From assembly GCA_027057985.1 (NCBI GenBank), contig JALUTJ010000526.1:1-19176 (forward strand): a stretch of 19,176 nucleotides of DNA. Direction: 5' to 3'. A program made the translations under genes and the position numbers. The notes beneath the pieces are model-generated. The model was not told the origin of the DNA. It did no database searches and saw nothing but the letters and a program-made list of their open reading frames with translations. Below, piece by piece: positions 4,142 through 19,176 of this stretch (positions are counted from its first letter, which is position 1; each line of letters opens with the position of its first letter). This DNA is from Chromatiales bacterium. Lineage in GTDB: Bacteria > Pseudomonadota > Gammaproteobacteria > UBA6429 > Thiohalophilaceae.

Positions 4142-4441
4142 TTAGTGAGTATTTTTTAAGAAATTTAGGGCGTTCTTATTACCTTTCATACTGGCTTGCT
4201 TGATATAGTTGAATCCCTTTTTCTTGTCACGTTTTACAGCCTTGCCTTCCAAATATAACAGTCCCATATAATATTCTGCACAGGCATTACCTTTAAGTGC
4301 ATCAGCCCACACCAGTGATTTTACCAGTGAATACTTTTTGTTTTTATAATAATAAGCGGCTTCCTCACAGTTGCCGGCATGGACTCCGGTAGATGTAATA
4401 AGCAGACTCAGGCTAAATATACTAAAGATAAGTTTTTTCAT
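4142..4441 (-). CDS. Small exported Sel1-repeat protein at the end of the pilin operon
   Basis: A 99-residue protein I cannot name. It has a clear signal peptide (MKKL, hydrophobic core 5-18, likely cleavage after VHA at residue 22), so the mature protein of about 77 residues should be periplasmic or secreted. The mature part has two cysteines (25 and 54), which could form a disulfide. Residues 53-95 match one Sel1-type tetratricopeptide repeat (AEYYMGLLYLEGKAVKRD, then KGFNYIKQASMKGNKNAL), a helical-hairpin protein-binding module; residues 24-50 could be a degenerate first repeat. It starts 18 bases after pilE with a good ribosome binding site (CGAGGAAAA), so it is probably transcribed with the pilin operon. 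It is strongly basic (many Lys). A role in pilus assembly or adhesion is only a guess from position. Confidence 0.75.
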   Translation of the reverse strand: MKKLIFSIFSLSLLITSTGVHAGNCEEAAYYYKNKKYSLVKSLVWADALKGNACAEYYMGLLYLEGKAVKRDKKKGFNYIKQASMKGNKNALNFLKNTH

Positions 4442-4459: not shown

Positions 4460-4879
4460 TTAATTGCTCCAGCAGCGGTTCAGTGTACCATTTCCACTCG
4501 TGGTAAAGCCTTTCTGTCCCAGATGATCCAGTGTCAGCGTAGTACACTCGGTATCATCAGCCTGTGCTCCTTTAGGGCTCGCTGTCAGGGTAAAGGTATC
4601 GGTTGTTAGCACGGAAGTAATGTTGTAATACTTCTTTTCAGATTCAGCAATATGGGTGCAGTCATTACCATTTTTATCGATATAACCACCGACATCTGAG
4701 TAACACTGCTGCAGCTCTTTACTGGCATTCAATAGCGCAGCGATACCATCACTGCGGCGGTTTTTGGTCATTTGCCGTTCATAGGCAGGCCAGGCGACCG
4801 CCGCGAGTATGGCAATAATGCCAATCGTGACCATCAGCTCGATTAAGGAAAAGCCAGTCTGTCTGTTTACGTTTTTCAT
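4460..4879 (-). CDS. pilE: Minor type IV pilin PilE
   Basis: A type IV pilin-like protein of 139 residues, inserted in the inner membrane before assembly into the pilus. A 9-residue leader ends in Gly before the PilD cleavage site, giving mature FSLIELMVTIGIIAILAAVA with Glu5, followed by the usual hydrophobic helix and a charged KNRRSDG stretch. Cysteines at 59 and 69, and a second pair enclosing the C-terminal loop (DTECTTLTLDHLGQKG ... NRCWSN), fit minor pilin PilE, as does its position directly downstream of pilY1. It starts 22 bases after the pilY1 stop, with AGAGGA upstream at somewhat long spacing. With FimU/FimT, PilV, PilW and PilX it should form the priming tip complex. The adjacent gene pilY2 of P. 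aeruginosa is absent here. Confidence 0.9.
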   Translation of the reverse strand: MKNVNRQTGFSLIELMVTIGIIAILAAVAWPAYERQMTKNRRSDGIAALLNASKELQQCYSDVGGYIDKNGNDCTHIAESEKKYYNITSVLTTDTFTLTASPKGAQADDTECTTLTLDHLGQKGFTTSGNGTLNRCWSN

Positions 4880-4901
4880 ACTTTAATACGGTCCTCTTAC
4901 A

Positions 4902-7900
4902 TTAAAGATCATCGGCATAGATTTCCTTCCATGACATCCGACCTTCACGCTGGTTCTTACCAATATTAACCATGCGGACATTGATATTACCTTCTGAGTC
5001 CGGGGTGTACTGTTTTTCACCGAGGAAGGTGGATTCTGCCGGTATGGCAAAGACCTTAACTCCCACAGGATTATTGCCATTTTGCTGATCCTGGACATTG
5101 ATAACACCGTCATTATTCAGGTCGAATACCTGTTTGTCAGGCTCACCACCATTGATCAGGTTAACCGACATCAGCCAGCCATTACCACCGGCATAGCATT
5201 TGCGGCTATCCGGTATCATGGTATTGAAGAATACGATATCACTACGAATCTTTGGATTAACCACGATACGTTCCCCATCGCTGCCTGTTACATCCAGATC
5301 AATATACCAGCCATTATCATTGCTGTTCAGGGTAGCGACAGGTGTTGCGATTCTTCTTACCAGTCCGGTACAGCCTGCAGCAGCACAGGTCTCTTCTACC
5401 AGGCTTTGCTGTTTAAATTTATCGGCATTTTTACGCGGATCCAGGCCCCAATTACTACGGCCATTGCTCAGGGCATTATAGTCTCTTACTCCGTAGAGTG
5501 TCTGTACCTGGGTATCCGTAATATCATTAGCCGTTAAGTATTGCCCTGTGCCAAATACCACCAGCAGGTCATCCCTTCCGGTTGATGCAGGGTCGCGTGA
5601 TACCACTGGCTTGACGGTAATAGGCTGACGAACAGCTGGACTTGCATTATCTTTCGTGGTCATGATGGGTGAGGCATTGGCCAGACCCCAGTTGGTAGTC
5701 ACGGTATTGCAGAGCCCTGTACCTGACTGATAGTCACAGAGATCAAAGGCCCACAGATTACCATAGAGGTCACCGGCATAAACACGGTCGGCCACCTTGT
5801 CACTATTTAAATCAACCACGGCTGGGCTGGAAAGACCATTACAGTCTGTTGTTGAACCGACACCGGTATCAAACTCAAGATAGTCGGTGCCTGCAGTCCA
5901 GGTGCCATCGATACCCCCGTCGAGAAAGACCACGAATAGCTTTGCCTTACAGTCTCCCGGGGTTGGGTTATCACTACTGTTATAACCATTGCCAAAGATG
6001 GCAGCAAAACGGCCATTATTCATCATGGCAATAACGGGCTTACTAAAAGTTTTACCCAGGTTGGGATGGGTAAATTCCCATTCAACCAGTTCTTTGGCAT
6101 TGGCTTCAGAAAAACGACTCGGGTCGGTTACATCCAGCATATACATGGTATTACCACCGGCACCCTGGCCACCGACCAGTACAGTACGCCATTCTTTACT
6201 TGAGGTTGCAACACCCGAGGAATCCTTATGATAGATATAAACATCACTGAGGGAAGGATTCAGGTCAACATAAAAGCGATGCTGGTAATTGGGATCGGCC
6301 AGGTAATGCAGCCCCTGGGTATTTGCCGAAGAGAATGTACCAGTTGGAATATAGGCCAGTACTTCTTCACCGGCATCAGCAGAGTTGTTTACCGGATCGG
6401 TTTGCATGGTACGGAAACCATGCAGCATGCCATCATTGGCAGCTACATATACAACAGGCATTCTGTCCTTGATGGAAGACATTGCCCAGGTGGAATAGGT
6501 GTTGTCGGGGTCAGCGGTGGTAGCTGGTGGTTCCGGGAATGGTGCAGTAATTGGCCAGCCAAGGGAAGGTTTACCAACATAAATCGGGCTGGAGTTGACA
6601 ATATCACCAAGAACATTAGTACGAATCCGGAAATCGATACTACTGGTTTTATTCTCATGGGTTCGATCGCCACGCAGATAGGCAATCAGCGTTTCGATAT
6701 AGGTCTGATTTTCACTTTTTTTGCTGCTGTCTGCTGCGGTAGTGGCATCACAGGGCCAGGGAATGGCATGGCTGGCACAGAGGTCGTCAACCAGATCCTT
6801 GGGAATTTCATAACTATTGGTTGTTGAGGTTATCGTGGTGTAATCTGCTGGTGCTTCAAAAGCGATACCGGATTGCTTCACCGGGTTGAAGGTCAGGATA
6901 TTACGTGAAGAAGGACTCTGGTTGTCCAGCATATCTTCTGCACGCCAGCAGTTATCATCACCTAAAGTACAGCCAGTAAGAATTTCACCGGTAAAGCCAT
7001 CCAGCGGAATGGAATGGAGTTTACCACTCCAGCGCTGGGTATTGAATAGTGCCTGGTAAACTGCACTCTGACTACTCAGGGTACTGGAGTTAAAGGTTAC
7101 TGCCGCCGCAGTTCCAGACTGGGCATCAACGCTGGCCTGAATATTGGCCAGTACGGACTGTAATTCCGTAGTTGAAGAGGCATAGTAGCTTTCACCACCA
7201 CCCTGTCGTCCTGCATCCTTGATTAGTTGCAGATTCTGGATTTGCTGGTCGGCAAAACCAATGGTGTAGGTAATCAGGTTATTTTTGTATGCCTGACCTT
7301 TTTTATCATTGAGATCCGGGCGCAGATCGACCTCATAAAGTGCCTGGGCCACATCATCCCAGTAATCTGAGTCCGGGCCAGGATCATAATCTTTGGTATC
7401 ACGAATACCACAGTTGTAGCTACCGGCTGCCTGGGCAGCAGCGGTACAGTCCTGATCATAATCTCTCAGGTGGACATCAACATTACGATCCCATGTTGGG
7501 AAGCCATCGGTGAGCATAACTACAAAGTTTTTCTGGCAGTAATATTTGATTGGCCCAGCCAGGGTAATACGATTTGCCAGCAGGGTGGTACAGGCGATAT
7601 CTTCTCTCAGCCCCGCTGGAGTATCGGTAGGCAGATTATCATCTGGATGAATGGTGATATTGGTATTGGAGAGTCCACCACAGGTACCTGAACTGCTGCC
7701 ATTGGTACCATCCCCATTTGAAAAATAACGGCCAAGGTCACGCAGGGTTTCCGAAAGTGGTGTACTACCATTTGCTACAATATTATTTACTGCATTTTTT
7801 AGTGTGGTCTGGAAGGCTGAGGTAATCGGTTGAATGGCAACATCGATTTGTGCCCCTAGATCCCCGTCAAACTCTGACAGACCGACATTGATATTCTTGA

Positions 7901-8465
7901 GAGTATCGATAAGACCATTGAGTGAAACCTGTGCTACTTCGATCCGGTTACGAGCTCCTGGTTTATAGCCTTTACCGGCCCAGGTATCTGTACCAGAATC
8001 AGTGGTGGTATCAAAATACCAGTTTAAGTAAGCCCCGCTATAGGGAACACTTGGCCAGCCCCATCTAATATCCAGAAGAGTATTCAGGTTGGCGTTATAG
8101 GTCAGAGCTGGGTCAAAACACCAGGTACTATTTCCACTATTGCCCAGAGGCCTGACATCACCATTGAAATCAATTTCAGGCAGGCCGCCAACGATATTAA
8201 GCTCAACTTCATTACCTCCTGGAATAAGTGAATTTGAATTACTACAGGTATAACTATAGCTGGTAGGGACAGGCTCTGGAGAAATAATATTCATTGAACC
8301 GGAGGAGTCGATAACAAACATGACATTGGAAGGCGCACTGGCCGATGTCTGCAGGGGTTCACTGGAGATAACACCCGGGGCAGCAGAGAGCAAACCCGGT
8401 AAGGTCAATAACAGGACTGAGCCGATAAGCCATTGTGTTTTCTTGAAGAGTTGATGCTTGTTCAT
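4902..8465 (-). CDS. pilY1: Type IV pilus tip adhesin and biogenesis protein PilY1
   Basis: Large exported pilus-tip protein needed for pilus extension, adhesion and, in P. aeruginosa, surface sensing. At 1187 residues its length is normal. Signal peptide 1-29 (KKTQWLIGSVLLLTLPGLLSAA). A von Willebrand A domain follows: FVIDSSGSMNI with MIDAS residues Asp53, Ser55 and Ser57, then VVMLTDGFP (316-323) and ITYTIGFAD (398-406). Residues from about 610 onward form the PilC-type beta-propeller, starting LGDIVNSSPIYVG and VVYVAANDGMLHGF. The calcium loop is DLNSDKVAD (885-893) followed by RVYAGDLYGNLWAFDL. A second EF-hand or dockerin-like loop, DLNNDGVINVQD, lies at 1115-1126. The C-terminus GRMSWKEI is typical. 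AAGGAG (8472-8477, complement) is a strong ribosome binding site and overlaps the pilX stop. The many aromatic and Asn/Gly/Ser residues fit an extracellular protein. Confidence 0.96.
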   Translation of the reverse strand: MNKHQLFKKTQWLIGSVLLLTLPGLLSAAPGVISSEPLQTSASAPSNVMFVIDSSGSMNIISPEPVPTSYSYTCSNSNSLIPGGNEVELNIVGGLPEIDFNGDVRPLGNSGNSTWCFDPALTYNANLNTLLDIRWGWPSVPYSGAYLNWYFDTTTDSGTDTWAGKGYKPGARNRIEVAQVSLNGLIDTLKNINVGLSEFDGDLGAQIDVAIQPITSAFQTTLKNAVNNIVANGSTPLSETLRDLGRYFSNGDGTNGSSSGTCGGLSNTNITIHPDDNLPTDTPAGLREDIACTTLLANRITLAGPIKYYCQKNFVVMLTDGFPTWDRNVDVHLRDYDQDCTAAAQAAGSYNCGIRDTKDYDPGPDSDYWDDVAQALYEVDLRPDLNDKKGQAYKNNLITYTIGFADQQIQNLQLIKDAGRQGGGESYYASSTTELQSVLANIQASVDAQSGTAAAVTFNSSTLSSQSAVYQALFNTQRWSGKLHSIPLDGFTGEILTGCTLGDDNCWRAEDMLDNQSPSSRNILTFNPVKQSGIAFEAPADYTTITSTTNSYEIPKDLVDDLCASHAIPWPCDATTAADSSKKSENQTYIETLIAYLRGDRTHENKTSSIDFRIRTNVLGDIVNSSPIYVGKPSLGWPITAPFPEPPATTADPDNTYSTWAMSSIKDRMPVVYVAANDGMLHGFRTMQTDPVNNSADAGEEVLAYIPTGTFSSANTQGLHYLADPNYQHRFYVDLNPSLSDVYIYHKDSSGVATSSKEWRTVLVGGQGAGGNTMYMLDVTDPSRFSEANAKELVEWEFTHPNLGKTFSKPVIAMMNNGRFAAIFGNGYNSSDNPTPGDCKAKLFVVFLDGGIDGTWTAGTDYLEFDTGVGSTTDCNGLSSPAVVDLNSDKVADRVYAGDLYGNLWAFDLCDYQSGTGLCNTVTTNWGLANASPIMTTKDNASPAVRQPITVKPVVSRDPASTGRDDLLVVFGTGQYLTANDITDTQVQTLYGVRDYNALSNGRSNWGLDPRKNADKFKQQSLVEETCAAAGCTGLVRRIATPVATLNSNDNGWYIDLDVTGSDGERIVVNPKIRSDIVFFNTMIPDSRKCYAGGNGWLMSVNLINGGEPDKQVFDLNNDGVINVQDQQNGNNPVGVKVFAIPAESTFLGEKQYTPDSEGNINVRMVNIGKNQREGRMSWKEIYADDL

Positions 8466-8475
8466 AATAAGCTCC

Positions 8476-9024
8476 TTAGTTCAGTCGCTTGCCATAATTG
8501 GACTGTAATATCACTACTGTATTGTCAGAGAGACCGGTGGCATAAACGGTGACGCGGAAGTTCGAGATCTGGCCACCGGTCGAGGTATCTCCATAACCAC
8601 CAAGATTGACCGAAGTACCTTCTTCCTCACCGGTATCACCACGGTATTCAATGGTAAAGCGTGGCTGGGTGCGAACTTCGTCAATCGTCGTTGGCATGAC
8701 TTTTGAGTTCGTTCCTGTCCACCAGCTGGTAGTAAAGGCATTTTGCGAGGTCGGGCCATTGTACTGACTATAAAGACCGTTGGTATCATTGAAAACAGAT
8801 GTGGAGATAATATTGTTACGGGCATAGTCTTCGGCATAAGCCAGAGTCATTTCTGCAGCCTGGAAGGCAATCTGGCGATCCCGGAAGTTACCGGCCATAC
8901 GCTCCTGCAGGCTGGAAGAACCCATGCTACTGACACCGATAATGGTCAGTACTACCAGTATCAGTAGACTGATAACCAGTATGGTACCCTTTTGCTTATG
9001 TATGTATGTCAGTTTCCTGTTCAT
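8476..9024 (-). CDS. pilX: Minor type IV pilin assembly protein PilX
   Basis: A 182-residue minor pilin of the PilX/GspK kind. The 13-residue leader (ending HKQKG) precedes TILVISLLILVVLTIIGVSSMG, the N-terminal helix. As in other PilX proteins, the usual Glu at mature position 5 is missing, which is taken to fit a protein at the very tip. The PilX N-terminal signature SSLQERMAGNFRDRQIAFQAAEMTLAYAE follows (read as two parts around residues 36-65). The C-terminal part is a variable globular domain with no cysteine. It lies 20 bases after pilW and 10 bases before pilY1, and PilX and PilY1 are thought to bind each other. An AGGTAG ribosome binding site lies about 10 bases upstream. Confidence 0.9.
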   Translation of the reverse strand: MNRKLTYIHKQKGTILVISLLILVVLTIIGVSSMGSSSLQERMAGNFRDRQIAFQAAEMTLAYAEDYARNNIISTSVFNDTNGLYSQYNGPTSQNAFTTSWWTGTNSKVMPTTIDEVRTQPRFTIEYRGDTGEEEGTSVNLGGYGDTSTGGQISNFRVTVYATGLSDNTVVILQSNYGKRLN

Positions 9025-9044
9025 TCGTTTTAACTACCTGTAAG

Positions 9045-10238
9045 TTATAAACTAAAGGCGCGATTTCGTACCTTGATCGTGGTGGTCATTACCTTGCGAA
9101 TACGCTTATCGGCAGGTGAGGTAACGGTAACTGCGGTTGCCGCATCGGAACCACCCAGTAAATAGGTTTTTGCCTGTGCTGTACGCCATGGTAATTCTTT
9201 TACCGAGCGTAAGAGAAGTGAAACTCTTACCGCGACAACATTGGCAAAATCGAGTACCTTGTTAGCAGCGACATAACGGTTGGGGATATTATCTGGCGTA
9301 GCGTCGGTATCTTCACCATAAAGTACCTGCATGGTTTCTACACCTTCAACTAGCTCGACTGCAGCACCATTACCCTGGCGCATAAACAGTGCTGGGCCGT
9401 TAGTGCCCATGCCGATATAGAAAACCTTGGTAGATACCCGCATTACCTCGTCACCAATTCGCAGTACCATAGGTAAAATGGGATCGGCATTACCGGGGCC
9501 ACCATGCGCGGCCATGTTGGCATTCGAGTGTACAAGGTTGACCTTACCACCAGCGGCAGTGATATTGGTGGTTTGCAATACCACGGCTTCCTGGCAGTTA
9601 GAAATCATCAGGATATCACCAGTGCATATACCGCTATAACTGGTAGTACCATCTGGGCAGGTACCGGTATTGCCATCTTTGATAAAGACCTGGCCACTGG
9701 TACTGTCGGCAAAAACCTCAACCCCGGCACCATCGGCTGTGCGTGAAATCAGGATATCGGTATTCTGAACCGGCGAATAACTGTAACCCAGTAGATCTGC
9801 AGTTGTTGGTAGCGAAACACTGGCTGTTGTTGTTTCCCAGCTGGCTTCTGTGCCGGTTGCCTGAGCAGTTGGAGTAGCTGAGAGTGTTACTGCCTGATTA
9901 GGTTCGGTACCGATATATTCATAGCCTTCGATGCCGGTAGCAAAGTTCCAGGCATTATAGTCCGGGTTATTGAGATTATTGCTGATTTTATTCAGTCCGG
10001 AAGCACAGCCGGAATAGCCGGCACCACGAACAAAGCGAGTAATATGGTTAATGGCAAAACGACCATTTTCCTGCAGGCGGGAATATTCTTCCTGCAACTT
10101 GAAGCTTCTTTTACTGCTGGTGTAAACCGAACTGATACCAAGGGCAATAATGCCACTGATGGCAATAGCGATCATCAGTTCGACCAGGGTAACCCCCCGG
10201 CTATAGTGAATTTTGTGCTGTGTTTGATATTTTTTCAT
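9045..10238 (-). CDS. pilW: Minor type IV pilin PilW
   Basis: A 397-residue pilin-like protein. A 15-residue leader ending SRG precedes VTLVELMIAIAISGIIALGI, with Glu at mature position 5. The conserved post-helix segment (QEEYSRLQENGRFAINHITRFVRGAGYSGCAS, residues about 53-84) is diagnostic of PilW-type prepilins. The large C-terminal region contains two further cysteine-bearing loops (TCPDGTTSYSGICTGD and SNCQEAV), likely disulfide-bonded, and ends with a PilW C-terminal segment (ANVVAVRVSLLLRSVKELP). The ATG comes 9 bases after the pilV stop and the ribosome binding site is weak, so translation probably depends on the upstream gene. PilW is a structural member of the tip complex with PilV, PilX and FimU. 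Confidence 0.93.
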   Translation of the reverse strand: MKKYQTQHKIHYSRGVTLVELMIAIAISGIIALGISSVYTSSKRSFKLQEEYSRLQENGRFAINHITRFVRGAGYSGCASGLNKISNNLNNPDYNAWNFATGIEGYEYIGTEPNQAVTLSATPTAQATGTEASWETTTASVSLPTTADLLGYSYSPVQNTDILISRTADGAGVEVFADSTSGQVFIKDGNTGTCPDGTTSYSGICTGDILMISNCQEAVVLQTTNITAAGGKVNLVHSNANMAAHGGPGNADPILPMVLRIGDEVMRVSTKVFYIGMGTNGPALFMRQGNGAAVELVEGVETMQVLYGEDTDATPDNIPNRYVAANKVLDFANVVAVRVSLLLRSVKELPWRTAQAKTYLLGGSDAATAVTVTSPADKRIRKVMTTTIKVRNRAFSL

Positions 10239-10247
10239 AATTCAGCT

Positions 10248-10772
10248 TCAGGTCTGTATATGTAATTTATAGCACTTGAGATCGGTCGCACTGTTGCCAC
10301 TGCAGTTTTCTCCGGTGGCACCGGTGCCATCTTCATCCCACATAATGGTAATTTCATAAACACCGCCATTATTGACGATGGTGGCGCGTCCAGATGGTAG
10401 CGTGTCCTGGATCTGCTTTTTCCAGTGGTAAAGATCAAAGGCTGCCATTTGTGATGTCGTACAGTCAGGTGTGCCACCTGTAGCCGCCTGTATACAACTT
10501 GTTGGTGCTGAACCCACTGATGAAGTGACATTGTCGAAGGTACTATCAACATTACCGGCATCATCGGTATTGGCTCGAATCAGATCGCTGATGTTATAGG
10601 CGTGTTGCATGGCGATGGTGCGCAGGTAGGCGGTATTATTACTTTGAATACCTTCTGCCTGGATACCGGCCAGGCCAAGCATGCCAATGGAAAAAATCAC
10701 CAGCGCCACCATGACTTCCAGCAGGGTAAAGCCAGATTCTGTTCGAGATCGATGTGGTGTGATTATGGACAT
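10248..10772 (-). CDS. pilV: Minor type IV pilin PilV
   Basis: A 174-residue minor pilin. The leader of 14 residues ends ESG before FTLLEVMVALVIFSIGMLGLAGIQ, with Glu at mature position 5; the run VALVIFSIGMLGLAG is characteristic of PilV/GspI prepilins. The following helix continues QSNNTAYLRTIAMQHAYNISDLIRAN. Cysteine pairs CIQAATGGTPDC and the C-terminal ENCSGNSATDLKC are candidates for disulfides. The start ATG overlaps the last 10 bases of the fimT-like gene, so the two are probably translationally coupled. Alternative readings such as a GspI pseudopilin are unlikely because pilW, pilX and pilY1 follow. Confidence 0.92.
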   Translation of the reverse strand: MSIITPHRSRTESGFTLLEVMVALVIFSIGMLGLAGIQAEGIQSNNTAYLRTIAMQHAYNISDLIRANTDDAGNVDSTFDNVTSSVGSAPTSCIQAATGGTPDCTTSQMAAFDLYHWKKQIQDTLPSGRATIVNNGGVYEITIMWDEDGTGATGENCSGNSATDLKCYKLHIQT

Positions 10773-11356
10773 GTCACATTATTCCCGTTGATATCATTTA
10801 CAATCTTGTCTTTAGTGGTATCCGTATCCTCTGCCAGGCTGACTCGCCCCATAATATTGACATTGATAGCTTTTGCTTTGGTAGCATCGGCATCCTTGTC
10901 GCACAGGGTAAAGGTGCCTTTATCGGTATTGGTGGCATCGGCATTCAGATCCCGCAGCGCACCGCTGGATTTGTAGCGCATCATACCGGCATTGTCCGAC
11001 TGTGATAGTCGCAGGGTAATATCCCCGGGCAGTTGGTTTTCAGCCTTGAGCAGGACATCGGTACCATTGATAGTGCCGCTGTTATCCGCATCGGTAAAGA
11101 CGATCCAGCCTTCTTCCCAGTTACTGGTATTGCAGGTGGTGCCATCATTACTGCCACAGAGTGTAATCGAGCTACCGCGACGAATGGCTTCACTCCGTGC
11201 CAGCACCAGGCTGCCGGAGATACTGTTGACATGGGCACTCAGCCGATTACTGCCGACCATGCTGTTCAGGGCAGGAATACCAGTCAGAAGCACGATGGCA
11301 ATTACTGCCACCGTGACAATGAGTTCAATTAATGTAAAGCCGTGGTTTTTAGTCAT
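10763..11356 (-). CDS. fimT: GspH/FimT-family minor pilin (FimU/FimT-like)
   Basis: First gene of the minor-pilin operon, in the place of fimU/fimT of P. aeruginosa. From the ATG at 11356 the protein has 197 residues: leader MTKNHG, then FTLIELIVTVAVIAIVLLTGIPAL with Glu at mature position 5. A GspH/FimT beta domain follows (SGSLVLARSEAIRRGSSITLCGS, WEEGWIVFTDADNSGTI). Cysteines at CGSNDGTTCN and near the C-terminus could be bridged. A TTG at 11374 would add six residues and give a 12-residue leader; the ATG is preferred because its short leader is typical for FimT. Neither start has a clear ribosome binding site. Whether it equals FimT or FimU cannot be settled by eye. It is divergent from thiO, as fimT is from the oxidase gene in P. 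aeruginosa as I remember it. Confidence 0.88.
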   Translation of the reverse strand: MTKNHGFTLIELIVTVAVIAIVLLTGIPALNSMVGSNRLSAHVNSISGSLVLARSEAIRRGSSITLCGSNDGTTCNTSNWEEGWIVFTDADNSGTINGTDVLLKAENQLPGDITLRLSQSDNAGMMRYKSSGALRDLNADATNTDKGTFTLCDKDADATKAKAINVNIMGRVSLAEDTDTTKDKIVNDINGNNVTCP

Positions 11357-11504
11357 GTGAATGTTATAGTCCAATATGAGTTACAAGTCAGTCACTGACA
11401 GGATAACCGGATTGGAATCACGGATAAATGGTTCCTGATAAATGAATTTGTGAAGCAGGCACGGTTTGCTGAAAATGTCCCTGCTGGAGGTATTTTAAAA
11501 GTAA
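11357..11504. promoter_or_regulatory. Divergent control region of the pilin operon and thiO
   Basis: This 148-base AT-rich spacer must hold the promoters of both divergent units. On the plus strand TTGGAA (11412-11417) lies 19 bases before GATAAA (11437-11442), a weak sigma70-like pair. The motif GATAAATG occurs twice (11423-11430 and 11437-11444), and GGATAA twice. On the minus strand TATAAC (11363-11368, complement) could be a -10 box, but I see no good -35 at 17 bases. No confident operator was found. Confidence 0.3.
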
Positions 11505-12696: not shown

Positions 12697-13104
12697 ATGC
12701 AGGACAATGACGACGCACTGATAGATTTACTGAAATTACATGATATTTCGCCGACTTCGCAGCGGCTTGAAATTGCGCGTATCCTGCTTGCCCGTCCGCA
12801 ACATCTTTCTGCCGACCAGGTGCTGGCATCGGTCAATGCCTCCCTGCCCGTGGTTTCCAAGGCAACGGTCTATAACACACTGGGTCTGTTTGCGAAAAAA
12901 GGCCTGGTGCGCGAAGTCATCGTTGATCCGAGTAAGGTTTTTTACGATTCCAATGTCGAACCGCATTTTCATTTTTATAATAGCGACAGTGGCGAGTTGA
13001 CCGACATCCCGAATGACTCGATAACGCTCAGCCAGATACCTGAACTGCCACAAGGTTGTTCACTCGACAGCGTTGATGTGATCGTTCGTATCCGCGAGGA
13101 CTAG
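12697..13104 (+). CDS. Fur-family transcriptional regulator lacking the CxxC zinc site
   Basis: A 135-residue DNA-binding protein of the Fur superfamily. Residues 12-75 form the winged helix: ISPTSQRLEIARILL, LSADQVLASVNASLPVVSKATVYNTLGLFAKKGLVREV. The dimerisation part begins VFYDSNVEPHFHFYN. In Fur, Zur and PerR this is followed by CxxC for a structural zinc; here the aligned residues are Asn95 and Ser98, and the single cysteine of the whole protein is Cys121. His90 and His92 remain as possible metal ligands. The sequence GELTDIP after this point resembles the Irr branch (iron/haem or peroxide response), but I cannot place it firmly. It has its own likely promoter, 88 bases after thiO. Target genes are unknown; the adjacent spacers show no obvious operator. 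Confidence 0.85.
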   Translation: MQDNDDALIDLLKLHDISPTSQRLEIARILLARPQHLSADQVLASVNASLPVVSKATVYNTLGLFAKKGLVREVIVDPSKVFYDSNVEPHFHFYNSDSGELTDIPNDSITLSQIPELPQGCSLDSVDVIVRIRED

Positions 13105-13200: not shown

Positions 13201-13237
13201 TAAAGCCTTAACTTAACTTTCAGTCAGAAAAAATGTG

Positions 13238-15001
13238 ATGGGTTTATTTTCAAGCGCCGGAACTGGAAAGGATATTCCCCTGATAAGGAAAAAAATCCGT
13301 ATTCCTCAGGAAATGGGAAATCTTGCCGGCCTGACCCTGCCATTTAAACCTGTCGAGAAAAGACTGGTTGATAAAAATAATATCAAGCAGAAACTGGAAA
13401 TCCACCGCAGGATGCCGGTACGTCTGCTTGAAACCGCAACTCAGGAAATGCAGAAAATCAATCGTCTTCTGCTGGGGGAAAAGGAAAGAAGGGAGCTGGC
13501 AGAATTATTTACTTCATATATATACAGTATCGTCCTGCTCTGGTATGAGAAATATCAGAAAGAAGAAAACAACCTGCCAGAAAGCCGTGAAAGAAAGCAT
13601 GCCCTGGTTGCGAGTATTGATGCTATTTCACAACTGTCAACTGCTTATAAACTGTTATTTCGTGAACTATATTCAAACAGTAAGCGTGAGTTTAAAAAAA
13701 ATGCAAAACAACTGTATCTTTATGCTGCACGCTCATTAGAACTGCTTAGGGTTGAACAACGGCTGCGGGCTTTGCGTTATCAGAAGTTGCCTCGGGTTGC
13801 CTGGCAACACTGTAATCAGTTGTTTTTTTCACTGGCTTATCACAACCAGCTGGATAACGAGTATAAGTTGATTGGCTTGCTTGGTGTGCGTAAATCTTCA
13901 GACCGATTACGTGCCGGTAGTGTACCGGATAGCACGGTAAGAAGGCTTTATCTTTCCATTCAGCTTTTTGGCCTGCTCGATGTCACCACCTGGCCCACCC
14001 GTATGTTTCATGTTCCCGATGCCTATCTTGATTTTCTTAAAGGAGAGGGGTTAAAACTGCTCGCGGATGATGACACTGAACTCCATCCTGGACTACTGGT
14101 GACCTACTGCAATAATGATGGCCCACCTCGGTTCAGGGTTACCAGGAACACACCATCTCTCAGGATAAGACTGGATTACACCGCTCTCTACAATATCCTG
14201 GTAAAAGATCACAAGGAAATTGGCAAGCAACAGTTCCTCGATGTTTTCGATGAGTCTGCAATTAGCCGGCCATTACTGCATATCCCTGAAGCCGACAGGG
14301 TACCGGTGATTGAAATGATGATCATGGGTCTGACCGAACGTGAAAGAAGACAGAAGCGACATGCTTCGTTTGATAATAGTAGATTACGGGTTTATTTTGG
14401 TTTTCATGATGTGAATAAGTTATTAACGGATCTGAATGAAACTGACCAGGAAACTATTCGCAGTTCGCGCCAGTTTATCGATACCCTGGCCATGTCTTCG
14501 GCGTTACTGGCGGAAGAAGAAAAACATTATATGAACGCCTCCTGGAAGATTATCAACTTCAGTGCTGGTGGCGTATTAATAAGTACCGAGGAAACAGATT
14601 TCAGTAACCCGATACATATCGACATGCTAATGGCATTTACCATGCCGGATAATGAAAAACATCCGATTCTTGGTTTCGTGCGCCGTCTTAACCGACCTAA
14701 TGCGAAAGAAGTGGAAATTGCAGTGGTACGCTTATCGAACTATGCTGAAGCAGCCGGGGTACAGGCACTGGATGAAATGGATAGCTCGGTCGCAAAGGCG
14801 GCTATCCTGATTAAAAATATTCGTAATGACTGGAACCTGATTATCAAGACAGGGATGCATTATTCAAAAGGAGATCCAATGAAGCTGATTCGTGCCAATG
14901 GTTTACACCTGCCGGTACGCCTGGGGGAAGTGATTTACACTAAAAAAGATTTCAGGGTATTTGAATTGCGTTCACCCAATCTGACACCAGAAAGCCAGTA
15001 A
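13238..15001 (+). CDS. Large protein with C-terminal PilZ-like (c-di-GMP receptor) region
   Basis: A 587-residue, probably cytoplasmic protein without signal peptide or membrane segments. Residue numbers below count from the GTG at 13235, which just precedes the preferred ATG at 13238. The N-terminal 280 residues look helical and strongly basic, with coiled-coil-like heptads around 60-90 and 165-185. A middle region (280-365) is mixed. The sequence LTERERRQKRHASF gives RxxxR at 371-375, and WKIINFSAGGVLI gives [D/N]xSxxG at 441-446, followed by GFVRRLNRPNAKEVEIAVVRL, a pattern of PilZ domains that bind c-di-GMP. The roughly 66-residue distance between the two motifs is unusually long, so an insertion would have to be assumed. 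The tail 535-583 (TGMHYSKGDPMKLI ... VFELR) could be a second small beta barrel. The ribosome binding site is weak. It lies alone on its transcript. The PilZ reading is moderately supported. Confidence 0.6.
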   Translation: MGLFSSAGTGKDIPLIRKKIRIPQEMGNLAGLTLPFKPVEKRLVDKNNIKQKLEIHRRMPVRLLETATQEMQKINRLLLGEKERRELAELFTSYIYSIVLLWYEKYQKEENNLPESRERKHALVASIDAISQLSTAYKLLFRELYSNSKREFKKNAKQLYLYAARSLELLRVEQRLRALRYQKLPRVAWQHCNQLFFSLAYHNQLDNEYKLIGLLGVRKSSDRLRAGSVPDSTVRRLYLSIQLFGLLDVTTWPTRMFHVPDAYLDFLKGEGLKLLADDDTELHPGLLVTYCNNDGPPRFRVTRNTPSLRIRLDYTALYNILVKDHKEIGKQQFLDVFDESAISRPLLHIPEADRVPVIEMMIMGLTERERRQKRHASFDNSRLRVYFGFHDVNKLLTDLNETDQETIRSSRQFIDTLAMSSALLAEEEKHYMNASWKIINFSAGGVLISTEETDFSNPIHIDMLMAFTMPDNEKHPILGFVRRLNRPNAKEVEIAVVRLSNYAEAAGVQALDEMDSSVAKAAILIKNIRNDWNLIIKTGMHYSKGDPMKLIRANGLHLPVRLGEVIYTKKDFRVFELRSPNLTPESQ

Positions 15002-15020
15002 TCTTGTTGTATATTTACCT

Positions 15021-15058
15021 GTAGGTCTGTTCAAGGAGTAAAGCGACGGAACCGACAA
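15021..15058 (+). repeat. REP-like palindrome 1, possibly also the terminator of the upstream gene
   Basis: Starts GTAGGTCTGTTCAAGG and ends GGAACCGACAA. GTCTGTTC (15025-15032) pairs with GAACCGAC (15049-15056) with one mismatch. Its head, GTAGGTC, and tail, CCGACA, are the form of widely scattered repetitive extragenic palindromes in proteobacteria as I remember them. Six T follow at 15059-15064, so on the plus strand it could act as an intrinsic terminator for the PilZ-like gene ending at 15001. Confidence 0.55.
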
Positions 15059-15062
15059 TTTT

Positions 15063-15092
15063 TTCACCGCAAAGACACAGAGTTCGCAGAGG
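15063..15092. repeat. CACCGCAAAGACACAGAG-type dispersed repeat
   Basis: The stretch CACCGCAAAGACACAGAG (15065-15082) followed by TTCGCAGAGG has the internal near-repetition AAAGACACAGAG / TTCGCAGAG. Very similar strings (ACCGCAAAGACGCAGAG) occur between genes in many unrelated bacterial genomes in my experience; copy number here was not measured. No ORF or hairpin goes with it. Confidence 0.45.
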
Positions 15093-15112
15093 TTTATTTA
15101 TTTCTCATAACA

Positions 15113-15135
15113 GGATTTTTTGCGAAAAAATATCC
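15113..15135. other. AT-rich hairpin between the repeats
   Basis: GGATTTTTT (15113-15121), loop GCG, then AAAAAA (15125-15130) and TATCC. It is an AT-rich inverted repeat with a short GC end; it could be a weak bidirectional terminator or part of the composite repeat. Confidence 0.3.
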
Positions 15136-15149
15136 GTAGAAAATATTCT

Positions 15150-15184
15150 AATTTGTCGGCTTCGCTCAGCTTGAGCCGACCTGC
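15150..15184 (-). repeat. REP-like palindrome 2, inverted relative to copy 1
   Basis: Read on the minus strand it begins GCAGGTCGGCTCAAGC and ends AAGCCGACAAAT. GTCGGCT and AGCCGAC (15155-15161 with 15174-15180) form a perfect 7-base stem. It aligns with copy 1 base for base at both ends (GxAGGTCxGxTCAAG ... CCGACAA). It lies 5-10 bases after the nadC stop, so its hairpin could also end or protect the nadC mRNA, although only a weak T-rich stretch follows. The two copies face each other across about 90 bases, as in REP doublets. Confidence 0.55.
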
Positions 15185-15188
15185 TGAC

Positions 15189-16067
15189 TTACTTGAAACG
15201 CAATGAAAAATCAATTGCCTGGATATGCTTGGTGATAGCACCGGTGGAAATATAATCGACGCCGGTTTCTGCAATACTGGCGATGGTTTGCAGGTCGATA
15301 TTTCCCGAGGCCTCAAGATCAATCTGGCCAGCCGTAATGGCAACGGCTTTTTTCAATGTTGTGATATCCATGTTATCCAGCAGGATACGATCAACCTGAG
15401 CCGTGATCGCCTGTTCAAGCTCATCAAGGGTTTCAACTTCCACTTCTATTTTTAATCCAGGGAACTTTAGCCGTGCTGTGGCAACGGCCTGTTGAATTGA
15501 ACCGGCTGCCTGGATATGGTTTTCCTTGATTAAGACCATGTCATACAGGCCGATACGATGATTAACACCACCCCCACAGGCAACGGCATATTTTTGTGCC
15601 AGTCGCAGGCCGGGAATGGTTTTGCGTGTGTCCAGTATACGGCAATGGGTATGCTGTATTTTTTCTGTAAAGCGAGCAGTAATGCTGGCAGTGGCCGAAA
15701 GGGTTTGCAGAAAATTCAGCGCGGTGCGTTCCGCAGTCAGTATTTGCCGTGCCGGGCCGGTTATCTTGCATATTACTTCATTTACTTTAATTCGCTCGCC
15801 ATCATTTTTAAGCCAGTTAAGCTGGATAGTTTTATCGAGCAGTTCAAAGGTGGCATTGAACCAGGCATGGCCACAGAGCACGGCTTCTTCTCGACAAAGT
15901 AATTCTGCCGTGGCCTGTTGTTTTTCATCTATCAGCAGGGCAGAGACATCTTTACCGGCATGAGGCTGGCCACTCGTGGTTCCCAGGTCTTCATCCAGTG
16001 CCTGTTGCACCTGTTTCTGGATATCTTCAATGGCGGGAAGCGGGTTTTCTTCAGGATTGAATGTCAT
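15189..16067 (-). CDS. nadC: Nicotinate-nucleotide pyrophosphorylase (carboxylating)
   Basis: Quinolinate phosphoribosyltransferase: makes nicotinate mononucleotide, CO2 and pyrophosphate from quinolinate and PRPP in de novo NAD synthesis; cytoplasmic. The 292 residues match the family. Signature motifs in order: EDLG (26-29), AERTALNFLQTLSATAS (112-128), DTRKTIPGLR (146-155) with catalytic-site Arg and Lys, KYAVACGGGVNHRIGLYD (159-176), IKENHI (180-185), EVEVETLDE (208-216), LLDNM (229-233), LEASGNI (251-257) and the terminal GVDYISTGAITK. A slightly long linker follows EDLG (TTSGQPHAG). The ATG at 16067 has no good ribosome binding site. In E. coli nadC is divergent from ampD-ampE; here a four-gene operon lies between them. 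Confidence 0.96.
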   Translation of the reverse strand: MTFNPEENPLPAIEDIQKQVQQALDEDLGTTSGQPHAGKDVSALLIDEKQQATAELLCREEAVLCGHAWFNATFELLDKTIQLNWLKNDGERIKVNEVICKITGPARQILTAERTALNFLQTLSATASITARFTEKIQHTHCRILDTRKTIPGLRLAQKYAVACGGGVNHRIGLYDMVLIKENHIQAAGSIQQAVATARLKFPGLKIEVEVETLDELEQAITAQVDRILLDNMDITTLKKAVAITAGQIDLEASGNIDLQTIASIAETGVDYISTGAITKHIQAIDFSLRFK

Positions 16068-16172
16068 GGCTATTCACAGTAAAGTGTCATCTAAGCTTGT
16101 TGAATTGTAACAATTGCCTGAACAGCTTTCGAGTTATTTCTCACCAGTCTGTTCAGAATAAACGATAACGGT
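16068..16172. promoter_or_regulatory. Divergent spacer with two inverted repeats upstream of the DUF1538 operon
   Basis: Two inverted repeats stand out in this 105-base spacer. AATTGT-A-ACAATT at 16103-16115 is a 13-base perfect palindrome about its central base, of operator size. CTGAACAG (16118-16125) and CTGTTCAG (16149-16156) are exact reverse complements 23 bases apart, and could form a hairpin in the leader RNA or bind a dimeric regulator at two half sites. I found no convincing sigma70 promoter for either direction. Confidence 0.35.
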
Positions 16173-16907
16173 ATGCTGCCAAAACTCAAAAAGATTCTGC
16201 ATCCCCTGTGGCAAAGCACCAGTGATCTACTTCCTATTCTGGTGGTGATCGCCTTTTTCCAGCTGGTGGTGCTGCAGAAACCCATTCCCAACCTGGATCA
16301 GCTTTTTATTGGGACAGTCTTCGTTGTTATCGGCCTGAGCCTGTTTGTAAAGGGACTGGAAATCGGGCTTTTTCCCATTGGCGAGAGCATGGCCTATGCC
16401 TTCGCCCGCAAGGGCAGTGTCATCTGGTTACTGATTTTCGCCTTTTCACTGGGATTCGGTACTACCATTGCAGAACCTGCCTTAATCGCGGTGGCCGATA
16501 AGGCTGCGGAAGTCGCTGCTGCCGGTCATGTCATCGCTAATACCGCCGAATCAAGGGCATCTTATGCTTCTGGTTTACGCCTCACGGTGGCCATTTCAGT
16601 AGGACTTGCCATTGTTATCGGTGTATTGCGCATCCTCAAAGGCTGGCCAATCCATTATCTGATAATTGGTGGATACATGGGGGTGGTGATTATGACCATT
16701 TTCGCTCCCGAGGAAATTATTGGTATCGCCTATGATTCTGGTGGAGTAACAACATCCACCATTACCGTACCGCTGGTTACTGCACTGGGTGTGGGACTGG
16801 CATCGAGTATCAAGGGGCGGAACCCGATGATCGATGGCTTTGGACTGATTGCTTTTGCCTCGTTAACTCCAATGATATTTGTTATGGCGTACGGGATGAT
16901 CATATGA
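16173..16907 (+). CDS. DUF1538 integral membrane protein, first paralogue
   Basis: A 244-residue polytopic inner-membrane protein of the DUF1538 family, function unknown. It has about six hydrophobic segments (near 18-35, 44-62, 83-100, 136-153, 162-178 and 225-243). Two polar motifs lie in or beside membrane segments: TTIAEP (97-102) and [10 protein letters not shown] (187-196) followed by [10 protein letters not shown]. The small and hydroxyl residues and the acidic Glu101 and Asp188 suggest a pore or ion-coupling site; this is inference. The next gene is a clear homologue carrying the same motifs, and their ends overlap (ATGA at 16904-16907), so they are translationally coupled and probably assemble together. 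Related families have the two halves fused in one chain, as I recall. The ribosome binding site is weak (AACGG). Confidence 0.85.
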
Positions 16908-17701
16908 ACAAGCTATTAACTGACATTTTTCATGTAACGATGGGTACCGTACTGGACGTATTGCCGATCGTGGTGATTATTTTTGGTTTCCAGTTCCTTG
17001 TGATAAGAAAGCCCGTTCCTAACCCGGGTAAAGTTATTCTGGGTTTCTTTTATGTGCTGATTGGCCTGGCCCTGTTCCTGGTTGGGCTGGAAGAAGCGCT
17101 GTTCCCGCTGGGTGAGCTGATGGCAAAACAGCTCACCAACCCGGAATTTATCTATGGTGCTGGTAAGGTTGCCGAGGTTGTCCACTGGCAGGATTACAAG
17201 TGGGTTTACCTGTTTGCACTGGCCATCGGTTTTTCAACTACCATCGCCGAGCCTTCGCTGCTGGCAGTGGCGATCAAGGCGAATGAGGTATCCGGTGGTG
17301 TCATCGGTATTAATGGCCTGCGTATTGCGGTAGCGTTAGGGGTAGCCATCGGTATTGGTTTGGGTACCTTTCGCATTGTGACCGGGACTAACCTTGAATA
17401 CTACATTATTACCGGCTATGTGATCGTGATAATCCAGACCCTGTTTGCGCCGAAAATGATTATCGCCCTGGCCTATGATTCGGGTGGAGTAACAACATCA
17501 ACCGTGACCGTACCACTGGTTACCGCGCTGGGGCTGGGACTGGCAACTACCATTCCCGGCCGTAGTGCAGTGCTGGATGGTTTTGGTTTGATCGCGTTTG
17601 CTAGTTTATGTCCTATTATTTCAGTAATGGCATACGCACAGTTAAGTGAGTGGAAAAATAAAAGGGCCGCACATAAGGCGGCAGTACAACAGGCGGAGTA
17701 A
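16904..17701 (+). CDS. DUF1538 integral membrane protein, second paralogue
   Basis: A 265-residue homologue of the preceding protein along its whole length: [14 protein letters not shown] with [41 protein letters not shown] (TTIAEP at 112-117), [20 protein letters not shown] (191-200), [12 protein letters not shown] and [20 protein letters not shown]. Differences are a longer loop after the second helix (residues 72-98) and a basic, hydrophilic tail ([18 protein letters not shown]) that should lie on the cytoplasmic side and could touch the soluble partners encoded next. It begins inside the stop of gene one (4-base overlap) and ends 10 bases before the PII-like start. The gene pair probably arose by duplication. 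No transported substrate can be inferred. Confidence 0.85.
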
Positions 17702-17711
17702 GGAGAGACAG

Positions 17712-18062
17712 ATGCATTTTAAATTGATTATTGCACTGATCGAGGATGATAAGACCGATGCAGTCATGGCGGCAGCACGAGAAGAAGGTGCAACCGGGAT
17801 GACTGTAATTAATCATGCGCGAGGGGAAGGGCTGAAGGCGAGTAAAACATTTTTTGGCCTGACACTGGAAACGCAACGTGACATGTTGTTAATGCTGGTT
17901 GAAGAACACCTGTCACGAAAAATTCTTGAACGCATTGCCTCGCAGGGGGAGTTTGATAGTAAACCCGGCACCGGCATTGCTTTTCAGATTGATGTTGAAG
18001 ATGCAGTAGGCGTGGCACACCAGGTAGAAAAACTGACAGAAGTGGTGGAGGAAGAAATATGA
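17712..18062 (+). CDS. PII-like signalling protein
   Basis: A 116-residue cytoplasmic protein of the PII fold (trimeric, ferredoxin-like; PII proteins bind nucleotides and control transporters and enzymes). Start chosen at the ATG at 17712 because AGGAGAG (17701-17707) lies just upstream; a longer open frame reaching to 17646 overlaps the previous gene and has no good signal. The first strand and helix (MHFKLIIALIEDDKTDAVMAA), the turn GATGMTVINHARGEG, and the last part FDSKPGTGIAFQIDVEDAVGV correspond to the beta-alpha-beta, T-loop base and B-loop/C-terminal strand of PII. The T-loop is short and lacks the uridylylated tyrosine of GlnB/GlnK, so control by GlnD is unlikely. It overlaps the CBS gene by 4 bases. 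Location suggests it gates the DUF1538 proteins, as GlnK gates AmtB; this is inference. Confidence 0.82.
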   Translation: MHFKLIIALIEDDKTDAVMAAAREEGATGMTVINHARGEGLKASKTFFGLTLETQRDMLLMLVEEHLSRKILERIASQGEFDSKPGTGIAFQIDVEDAVGVAHQVEKLTEVVEEEI

Positions 18063-18472
18063 CAGAGAGAAATATCGTTCGCGTGCGCGACGTAATGAAA
18101 AAGAACTTTGATGTTATCGATGGTATGACAACGGTTTCAGATGCCTTAAGCAAGATGCAGCATGTTGAAACAAAGTCACTGATCGTAGATAAACGCCATG
18201 ATGACGATGAGTATGGCATCGTGCTGATCTCGGATATTGCCAAGCAGGTGCTGGCACGTGATCGTTCTCCTGATCGGGTTAATGTTTACGAAGTCATGGC
18301 CAAGCCGGTGATTTCGGTTGACCCTGATATGGATATTCGTTATTGCGCACGCCTGTTTGAAAACTTTGGTCTTTCTCGTGCCCCGGTTATCGAGTGTGGC
18401 AAGATGATTGGCATTATCAGTTTTACCGACATGGTGCTACGTGGCATGCTGAACCACCCGGGCAAGAACTGA
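18059..18472 (+). CDS. Two-CBS-domain protein
   Basis: A 137-residue protein made almost only of a CBS pair, the module that binds adenosyl ligands (AMP, ATP, SAM or, in some families, c-di-AMP). CBS1 spans about 7-65 (VRDVMKKNFDVIDGMTTVSDAL ... SLIVDKRHDDDEYGIVLISDI) and CBS2 about 74-133 (VYEVMAKPVISVDPDMDIRYCARLF ... APVIECGKMIGIISFTDM). CBS2 retains the ribose/phosphate pattern S-x-x-D (Ser121, Asp124), while CBS1 keeps only the Asp (59) with Leu in the Ser/Thr position, so ligand binding may be asymmetric. The ATG lies inside the stop of the PII-like gene (ATGA, 18059-18062), a sign of strict coupling. Ligand and effect are unknown; the setting suggests an energy or nucleotide input to the membrane proteins. 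Confidence 0.88.
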   Translation: MTERNIVRVRDVMKKNFDVIDGMTTVSDALSKMQHVETKSLIVDKRHDDDEYGIVLISDIAKQVLARDRSPDRVNVYEVMAKPVISVDPDMDIRYCARLFENFGLSRAPVIECGKMIGIISFTDMVLRGMLNHPGKN

Positions 18473-18484
18473 AGCGGTCTTTTG

Positions 18485-19045
18485 ATGCATATCGACAAGA
18501 GTAATGGCCTGGTCAAGGAAGCACGTCAGCAGCCTTCGCCCAATTTCGACCTGCGCCCGGATGAAACCGATATTTCATTGCTGGTGATTCACGGCATCAG
18601 CCTGCCCCCGGGTGAGTTTGGTGGTGATTTTATCGACCAGCTTTTCTGTAACCAGCTCGATGCCTCGGCCCATCCTTATTTCAGGGAGATTGCAGGGCTG
18701 AAAGTTTCCTCTCACTTCCTGATCCGCCGTGATGGTGAGCTGGTGCAGTATGTCCCGATACACCGGCGAGCCTGGCATGCCGGTGTTTCCCGCTACAAGG
18801 GACGGGAAAAATGTAATGATTTTTCTATTGGTATCGAGCTGGAAGGGGAAGACAGCACGCCCTATACCGAAATTCAGTACCAGGTACTGTCAGACCTGAT
18901 TCATATCCTGCTGGAAACTTATCCCGGCCTGGATATCAGCGATATTACTGGTCACAGTGATATCGCCCCCGGGCGCAAGACCGATCCCGGTCCTGCCTTT
19001 GACTGGGAAAAGCTGGATAAACTGCTTCTGGCATCGTCACGTTAA
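18485..19045 (+). CDS. ampD: 1,6-anhydro-N-acetylmuramyl-L-alanine amidase AmpD
   Basis: Cytoplasmic zinc amidase (amidase_2 fold) that splits the lactyl-Ala bond of anhydro-muropeptides during cell-wall recycling; its loss derepresses AmpR-controlled beta-lactamases in other species. 186 residues from the ATG at 18485. Zinc ligands His36 (LLVIHGISLPPG), His157 and Asp167 (GHSDIAPGRKTDPGP), catalytic Glu118 (IGIELEGED) and Lys165 fit the known AmpD residues H34, H154, D164, E116 and K162 with a constant small offset. SSHFLIRRDGELVQYVP, RRAWHAGVS and the R-rich NDFS context are typical. A TTG at 18482 would extend by one residue and is not preferred. It follows the CBS gene by 12 bases, so it may be read from the same transcript. 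It lacks a signal peptide, which separates it from AmiD. Confidence 0.96.
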   Translation: MHIDKSNGLVKEARQQPSPNFDLRPDETDISLLVIHGISLPPGEFGGDFIDQLFCNQLDASAHPYFREIAGLKVSSHFLIRRDGELVQYVPIHRRAWHAGVSRYKGREKCNDFSIGIELEGEDSTPYTEIQYQVLSDLIHILLETYPGLDISDITGHSDIAPGRKTDPGPAFDWEKLDKLLLASSR

Positions 19046-19144
19046 CACTTTCATCGCAGTCAGCTAGCAACTATGGTGATTCCGAATAAGCATTAAGCTC
19101 TTTTCAGACTTGCATTTAGGCGGCATTAGCTGGAAACTATCGCC

Positions 19145-19176
19145 ATGAGTCTACTAAGCGTCATTTTCGCCCTGCT
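19145..19176 (+). CDS. Start of next gene, probably AmpE-like membrane protein (cut by window edge)
   Basis: Only ten codons are visible: ATG at 19145 gives MSLLSVIFAL, a hydrophobic N-terminus. AmpE follows ampD in E. coli and P. aeruginosa and begins with such a segment, which makes it the best guess. The spacing after ampD is 99 bases, with no strong ribosome binding site and no obvious terminator in between. Related CobD/CbiB-like proteins look alike at the N-terminus, so the call is tentative. Confidence 0.4.
   Translation, partial: MSLLSVIFAL

Follow-up and report, generated by a model that had tools for sequence, protein, structure and literature searches.

A DUF1538 membrane protein pair encoded with a PII-like protein and a CBS-pair protein: a probable UmpAB-type antiporter operon with a proposed regulator of its own

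The 19,176-nucleotide stretch analysed here (the window: contig JALUTJ010000526.1 of GenBank assembly GCA_027057985.1, from a Chromatiales bacterium) carries at 16173-18472 four forward-strand genes, overlapping or near-touching, for two DUF1538 membrane proteins, a PII-like protein and a protein with a pair of CBS domains. We propose that this operon probably encodes an UmpAB-type monovalent cation/proton antiporter, a PII-like protein that regulates it and, as an accessory, a CBS sensor. The features concerned, with lengths in amino acids (aa), are these:

16173..16907, forward strand: umpA-like gene, DUF1538 membrane protein 1, 244 aa (PF07556, E 1.8e-70); TTIAEP at 16461-16478, second shared motif at 16731-16760
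16904..17701, forward strand: umpB-like gene, DUF1538 membrane protein 2, 265 aa (PF07556, E 3.9e-66); TTIAEP at 17237-17254, second shared motif at 17474-17503
17702..17711, forward strand: GGAGAGACAG, between the umpB-like and PII-like genes, a probable ribosome-binding site by direct reading
17712..18062, forward strand: PII-like gene, 116 aa, start ATG at 17712 (PF00543 P-II, E 4.5e-13; alignment with PIIs of the same genome; linkage)
18059..18472, forward strand: CBS-pair gene, 137 aa (PF00571, two stretches, E 1.8e-18)
18486..19045, forward strand: ampD, 13 bases downstream of the CBS gene (NF008758 AmpD, 286.4 bits against a cut-off of 143)

ATGA stop/start overlaps join the umpA-like to the umpB-like gene (16904-16907) and the PII-like to the CBS gene (18059-18062), and the PII-like ATG, preceded by GGAGAG, lies 10 bases past the umpB-like stop. 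The open reading frames (ORFs), both 4-base overlaps and the 10-base gap agree exactly with the layout given in the initial annotation. Its view that the two membrane proteins are homologous also stands: they are 53% identical, both carry TTIAEP and the second motif, and Pfam confirms all four families. Upstream of the umpA-like gene lies a divergent nadC. Terminator-like sites occurred at chance level (3 observed against 2.9 expected), promoter-like sites showed no excess over chance, and no Rfam family matched at 15000-19176. The host genome (2.44 Mb, 94.85% complete; nearest named relatives gammaproteobacterial metagenome-assembled genomes) carries the operon on its contig C526 and has a single DUF1538 pair.

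The DUF1538 membrane proteins

Both membrane proteins exceed the PF07556 gathering score, with 237 and 222.8 bits against 22.6. The initial annotation had held that DUF1538 has no assigned function, which is contradicted by UmpAB of Halomonas zhaodongensis, a DUF1538 heterodimer whose Na+(Li+,K+)/H+ antiport has been tested and varies with pH (PMC5484666). That report describes the discovery of umpAB by complementation of Escherichia coli KNabc, with umpA and umpB as ORF3 and ORF4 of a 4.2-kb clone with four ORFs; it also presents antiport as a function of pH and co-immunoprecipitation, and gives K0.5 values a section of their own (PMC5484666). Against the curated models the umpA-like product scored 384.7 bits (NF041627 UmpA, equivalog cut-off 490) and the umpB-like product 349.5 bits (NF041628 UmpB, cut-off 500). 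Because the score lies under the curated cut-off, the name 'UmpA equivalog' is barred, and we speak of UmpA-like and UmpB-like proteins throughout.

An AlphaFold2 model of the umpB-like product (predicted local distance difference test score 86.7, predicted template modelling score 0.78) placed helix breaks in both shared motifs. Helices at residues 95-114 and 117-129 are separated by a break inside TTIAEP (residues 112-117), and helices at 184-196 and 202-216 by a break in the second half of the second motif (residues 191-200). Glu116 and Asp192 (UmpB numbering) are invariant across 44 sequences, and neither the AEP Glu nor the second-motif Asp varies in either half of ten fused DUF1538 proteins from Pseudomonadota and Clostridia that are 26-85% identical to the first of them. 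Within the broken-helix motifs AEP and YDSGG, the conserved acidic residues are likely to form the ion and proton site, and the modelled breaks would give that site the anatomy of two discontinuous helices. Viral contigs yielded a single partial relative of DUF1538, situated at the end of a contig, and none of UmpB.

Recurrence of a PII-like gene beside DUF1538

We sampled genomes across Pseudomonadota, evidence from Bacillota coming from five plasmid records. DUF1538 was present in 88 of 397 Pseudomonadota genomes, the host counted among them, and the 14 well-known control genomes gave no match; the PII-like protein was found in 91 of the same 397 (E <= 1e-6). The two coincide closely: 87 of the 88 genomes with DUF1538 have the PII-like protein, against 4 of the 309 without (Fisher p ~1e-81, uncorrected for kinship). 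The four are G022, G105, G109 and G211. G026 is the sole genome with DUF1538 and no PII-like match, and three members of its genus (G018, G030, G061) have matches at 1e-8 to 2e-7. Counted by genus, DUF1538 occurs in 41 of 232 and the PII-like protein in 43 of 232.

Coincidence within genomes is matched by adjacency. We fetched 75 loci around the listed DUF1538 places, leaving further places aside; 14 genomes had no listed place (G005, G013, G018, G026, G030, G060, G061, G081, G096, G120, G135, G138, G156 and G380), and 13 of these were reached through their PII-like places, G026 being left out. A PII gene lies on the DUF1538 strand in 72 of the 75 loci, within 150 bases of a DUF1538 frame in 68 of these; at the other four (L081, L097, L123, L130) the PII and CBS genes stand upstream of a fused DUF1538 gene. 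Approached from the PII side, 91 of 109 PII-like places fall inside a DUF1538 operon and 18 do not (hand count; at L172 DUF1538 is found only on the opposite strand, 3.5 kb off, and L174 is cut on its upstream side). By taxonomic family, DUF1538 stands beside PII in 22 of the 23 families that have it. The exception is family f68, to which two of the three DUF1538 loci without PII belong (L114 and L127, from G084 and G116): there PII, then CBS, lie on another contig. G084, G116 and a third member, G138, have such unlinked PII-CBS pairs at L163-L165, and this retention after separation from DUF1538 argues for a functional tie.

The linkage held in the other samples too. In a separate draw of Gammaproteobacteria, PII was present in 29 of the 30 best loci, the studied operon among them, and CBS in at least 27 of the 30; flanks here and at the f11 loci described below were 1.5 kb, so that CBS counts are lower bounds. 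A scan of close relatives gave PII in 24 of 25 loci, the remaining one (L024) ending inside umpB. The initial annotation had stated beforehand that its reading would fall if DUF1538 showed no recurring linkage with PII-like or CBS genes in other genomes; linkage with PII proved widespread (72/75, 29/30 and, in f11, 30/30 loci).

The association extends to plasmids and to fused forms of DUF1538. Nine plasmid records have a DUF1538 relative, of which seven were opened (H4 and H6 were left out, being from the same species as H3 and H2). Alphaproteobacterial plasmids of Chelativorans and Methylocystis carry two DUF1538 genes followed by a 'P-II family nitrogen regulator'. In five clostridial plasmids a single fused DUF1538 gene precedes a protein in which the family profile detects two PII stretches (Paraclostridium, Vescimonas and Peptoclostridium from annotation, Subdoligranulum and Acetoanaerobium from our own ORF scan). 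The first stretch is weak by this profile in Vescimonas, and the Pfam P-II model finds both stretches in Peptoclostridium and only the second in Paraclostridium. These clostridial fused forms are 26-29% identical to the halomonad fused form. Another subfamily, in Pseudomonadota, also combines a fused DUF1538 (frames of ~570-630 aa) with PII, and in 10 of its 16 loci there are two adjacent PII genes (L143, L144, L147, L149-L153, L158, L159), the second one highly diverged (16-28 bits). At L061 the fused-type PII reaches 24.5 bits, a little short of the PF00543 gathering score of 25.

Some further arrangements were seen at these loci. The adjacent PII gene pairs of the Pseudomonadota fused subfamily echo the clostridial tandem double-PII. 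L090 holds two full cassettes in tandem, fused DUF1538-PII-CBS and then PII-DUF1538-DUF1538, and at G784:C5:470575-475467 split and fused DUF1538 genes lie within 5 kb. Among PII-like copies without DUF1538, ten share a related neighbour (L155, L160, L162, L166, L168, L169, L171, L172, L175 and L176), which is a bacterial-SH3 protein in both cases tested (L166, L172). Several of these stretches additionally encode an amino acid kinase (as tested for L172) or an oxidoreductase resembling ETF-QO (as tested for L167). In G022, which has no DUF1538, the only PII-like copy (L160) is of this SH3-neighbour type.

Could the block simply have been inherited, with no functional link between its parts? 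Operons may persist among close relatives, and nadC and ampD each recur near the operon in 9 of 25 close-relative loci. Both are, however, found in none of the 75 loci L057-L131, whereas the DUF1538-PII linkage spans Alpha- and Gammaproteobacteria and Clostridia, survives both fusion and duplication, and is accompanied by the 87/88 co-occurrence and by the PII-CBS pairs kept apart from DUF1538 in f68. We regard such inertia as very improbable and already largely refuted. ampD itself probably lies outside the system, adjoining the operon only in some close relatives.

A finer test of partnership came from family f11, probably that of Halomonas, an assignment we base on 97% identity between the fused protein of G050 and one from Halomonas sp. 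SpR1 (G050 and G086 are common to this sample and the 397 genomes). Matches occur in 34 of 151 f11 genomes, as split umpA and umpB genes in some and as a fused gene in others, with genus g13 having both; PII is present in 30 of 30 fetched loci and CBS in at least 24 of them. PII identity averages 76% within the split type (63-90%) and 73% within the fused type (55-100%), against 29% between types (24-36%); the DUF1538 halves are 81-84% identical within types and 50-51% between. The studied PII-like protein shares 63% identity with PIIs of the split type and 32% with those of the fused type. Judged by these identities, PII in f11 follows the transporter type rather than the host. Moreover, PII lies directly downstream in the f11 split loci that come nearest to the tested UmpA, at up to 448.5 bits. 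By analogy with these loci, the tested UmpAB of H. zhaodongensis probably has a PII-like partner as well; the terms 'P-II' and 'CBS' are absent from the main text of the UmpAB paper (PMC5484666).

The two soluble proteins and the proposed regulation

The PII-like protein matches PF00543 with 49.9 bits (gathering score 25), and we aligned it with the other PIIs encoded in the host genome, of which there are three. In canonical GlnB and GlnK the T-loop carries Tyr51, and Lys90, Arg101 and Arg103 are residues for ATP and 2-oxoglutarate. Relative to the two canonical PIIs of the genome, the T-loop of the PII-like protein has a 5-residue gap and no tyrosine, PGTGIAF stands in place of the canonical IGDGKIF, and AVGV in place of the canonical VVRI or AVRI + R. 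On this alignment the protein is not a canonical GlnB/GlnK, its T-loop being shortened and the canonical ligand residues gone. Sensing of ATP and 2-oxoglutarate is accordingly marked as unlikely by its sequence and, given the missing residues, a different small ligand is to be expected. Across an alignment of 99 members of the PII-like family, FFGL is conserved to at least 90%, the clostridial domains differing there, a pattern that would fit a constant binding partner. The third PII of the host (G000:C386:22024-22311), which is not on the DUF1538 contig, has a short T-loop too (GYGEYANFY). A textbook PII adjoins an ammonium transporter on contig C446 of the host genome, so that nitrogen control need not depend on the operon; this pair is also a precedent, inside the host, for a PII encoded next to a transporter. 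For comparison, P-II was found in 13 of the 14 well-known control genomes.

The c-di-AMP synthase domain (DAC, PF02457) was not found in the 94.85% complete host genome, while 11 of the 14 control genomes were positive, which makes c-di-AMP an unlikely ligand in this host. With the canonical PII residues missing and no such domain found, several of the ligands proposed in the initial annotation are less likely.

The nearest solved chain to the CBS protein is the CBS-CP12 structure 5nmu (E 8.8e-26), the match of the 137-aa protein covering only residues 4-127 of the 208-aa chain. CBS-CP12 reportedly binds AMP. The motif by which CBS domains hold the ribose of adenosyl ligands is G-h-h-[ST]-x-x-D. 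Across the 74 CBS sequences with more than 120 bits and at least 110 aa, CBS2 keeps the S or T of this motif in 67 and the D in 57, and CBS1 has L or V at the S/T position in 60 of 74 and retains the D in 67 of 74. CBS lies directly 3' of PII in 52 of the 75 DUF1538 loci. Among the 23 without it, three also have no PII and two (L087, L099) end at a contig edge, and none of the seven opened plasmid stretches has a CBS relative. CBS is thus an accessory, optional second sensor, and PII is near-universal. The two-sensor claim of the initial annotation divides along this line: the linkage that it expected holds strongly for PII (72/75 loci), and an equal partnership of CBS does not stand (52/75, and none in the seven plasmid loci). 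In the same way, the single membrane system that it envisaged is best read as a transporter with its own PII-like regulator, CBS being only accessory.

The operon could operate as follows. An UmpAB-type heterodimer would exchange cytoplasmic Na+, Li+ or K+ for external H+, as the Halomonas homologue has been shown to do. The PII-like protein, which probably forms a trimer as other PIIs do, may dock on the cytoplasmic face of the antiporter through the short T-loop stretch TFFGLTLE and, once docked, slow or stop exchange in the manner of GlnK on AmtB and SbtB on SbtA. This throttling would be set by a ligand other than the ATP/2-oxoglutarate pair, and the CBS protein, where present, may add an input of adenine-nucleotide type. 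Since UmpAB alone is active in E. coli, the regulators must tune activity rather than build it.

Several observations weigh against this antiporter-and-regulator reading. The UmpA equivalog cut-off was passed by none of 370 gammaproteobacterial and none of 151 f11 genomes; as no sampled genome passes it, failing it says little about function. No confident relative emerged from fold searches with either the UmpB-like protein or a natural fused protein. The co-occurrence comes from an uneven sample, with 35 of the 88 DUF1538 genomes belonging to family f48, and about a dozen of the 91 PII-like genomes match only at 1e-7 to 1e-9. The 18 of 109 PII-like places lie outside any DUF1538 operon in the fetched stretch, many of them beside a bacterial-SH3 protein gene, so that some members of this PII subfamily may have other targets. 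The third DUF1538 locus without PII (L113, in G089) offers weak support, its genome's sole PII-like match (L166) adjoining a bacterial-SH3 gene; in other genomes such SH3-neighbour copies occur besides the adjacent copy. No fusion among DUF1538, PII and CBS was found in 209 loci. The Halomonas UmpAB is reported to be active in E. coli with neither PII nor CBS, so that neither is needed for activity (PMC5484666). Finally, a review describes PII control as seemingly restricted to transporters able to be trimers, whereas UmpAB is reported as a heterodimer; the PII targets that it covers include ABC importers (PMC10710835).

Two rival explanations draw on these points. The PII-like protein might control DUF1538 while the assay in E. 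coli KNabc picked up no more than a secondary antiport activity, the true substrate being another ion or metabolite. The only assay found is one heterologous study of one species, the fold searches tie DUF1538 to no known transporter with confidence, and the clostridial fused forms are distant from the halomonad one. The host genome, moreover, already encodes NhaA and three Na_H_Exchanger proteins, so that basic antiport need not depend on the operon. We nevertheless consider another substrate unlikely in view of the pH profile, K0.5 section and co-immunoprecipitation available for UmpAB (PMC5484666). In addition, an independent machine-learning study lists DUF1538 in its table of the 20 leading genes for growth pH (PMC13255231), and the names of hosts of the fused form, which include Marinospirillum alkaliphilum, Nitrincola alkalilacustris and many Marinobacter, fit life in salt or alkali.

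The second rival has the PII-like and CBS proteins never touching the transporter and acting instead on transcription or on enzymes under the same stress, with the operon serving only co-expression. The absence of fusions in the 209 loci, the 18 PII-like copies found elsewhere, many beside a bacterial-SH3 gene, and the activity of UmpAB by itself would all agree with this. However, no DNA-binding domain exceeds its Pfam cut-off in the four products, PII type tracks transporter type in f11 as it would for contacting partners, and both GlnK-AmtB and SbtB-SbtA act by direct binding according to the review (PMC10710835). We judge action without contact to be improbable, and retain the UmpAB-type antiporter throttled by its own PII-like protein as the favoured explanation; homology, linkage, co-occurrence, type matching and the loss of canonical ligand residues are observed, and contact, inhibition and ligands are the parts of it that we infer.

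A broader proposal can be put forward tentatively, and we rate it as somewhat short of probable: PII signalling may have an ancient, separate branch devoted not to nitrogen but to the homeostasis of ions and pH, made up of PII-like proteins whose ATP/2-oxoglutarate site has been lost and which are near-obligate partners of DUF1538 cation/proton antiporters in Pseudomonadota and Clostridia. The double-PII partners would then answer the mismatch between a pseudo-dimeric transporter and a three-fold PII ring. That the double PIIs found with fused DUF1538 represent an accommodation of the pseudo-dimer is speculation on our part.

Elsewhere in the window, the reverse strand carries at 4460-11374 a type IV pilus minor pilin cluster (PilE-like, PilY1, PilX-like, PilW, PilV-like and FimT-like), in which PilY1 (1187 aa, PF05567) and PilW (PF16074) were checked with Pfam and the others named by eye. 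Also on the reverse strand, 4142-4441 encodes a 99-aa protein that has one Sel1 repeat and, judged by eye, a signal-like N-terminus. On the forward strand, a 588-aa protein with no Pfam match at E <= 0.001 (13235-15001) adjoins a Fur-family regulator (12697-13104).

Known systems compared

Public annotation shows DUF1538 and PII as neighbours without interpretation, and we found no paper connecting DUF1538 or UmpAB with PII in the open-licence literature, as far as its text was available. The transporters listed as PII targets in the accessible part of the review carry ammonium, nitrate/nitrite, urea or bicarbonate (PMC10710835). The system proposed here would add to the known PII-controlled transporters a new transporter class with a distinct PII subfamily. 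If this is true, PII control extends to salt, potassium and pH homeostasis across two phyla, DUF1538 gains a regulated role, and many proteins annotated as 'P-II family nitrogen regulator' may not regulate nitrogen.

UmpAB of H. zhaodongensis resembles the studied pair in consisting of two homologous DUF1538 membrane proteins from overlapping genes; it differs in that the studied proteins fall under the equivalog cut-offs and that no regulator is mentioned in the available text of the UmpAB paper (PMC5484666). The CBS protein has its best solved relative in CBS-CP12, the likeness being confined to residues 4-127 of that 208-aa chain. GlnK-AmtB is similar in having PII encoded beside its transporter, as on host contig C446, whereas AmtB is described as a trimeric ammonium transporter (PMC10710835). 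Canonical PII such as GlnK differs from the PII-like protein in its longer T-loop and in Tyr51, Lys90, Arg101 and Arg103, none of which the latter retains. SbtB-SbtA, compared for SbtB by description only, offers a PII-family protein that directly controls an ion-coupled transporter, although SbtA is a trimeric bicarbonate transporter and not a DUF1538 protein (PMC10710835).

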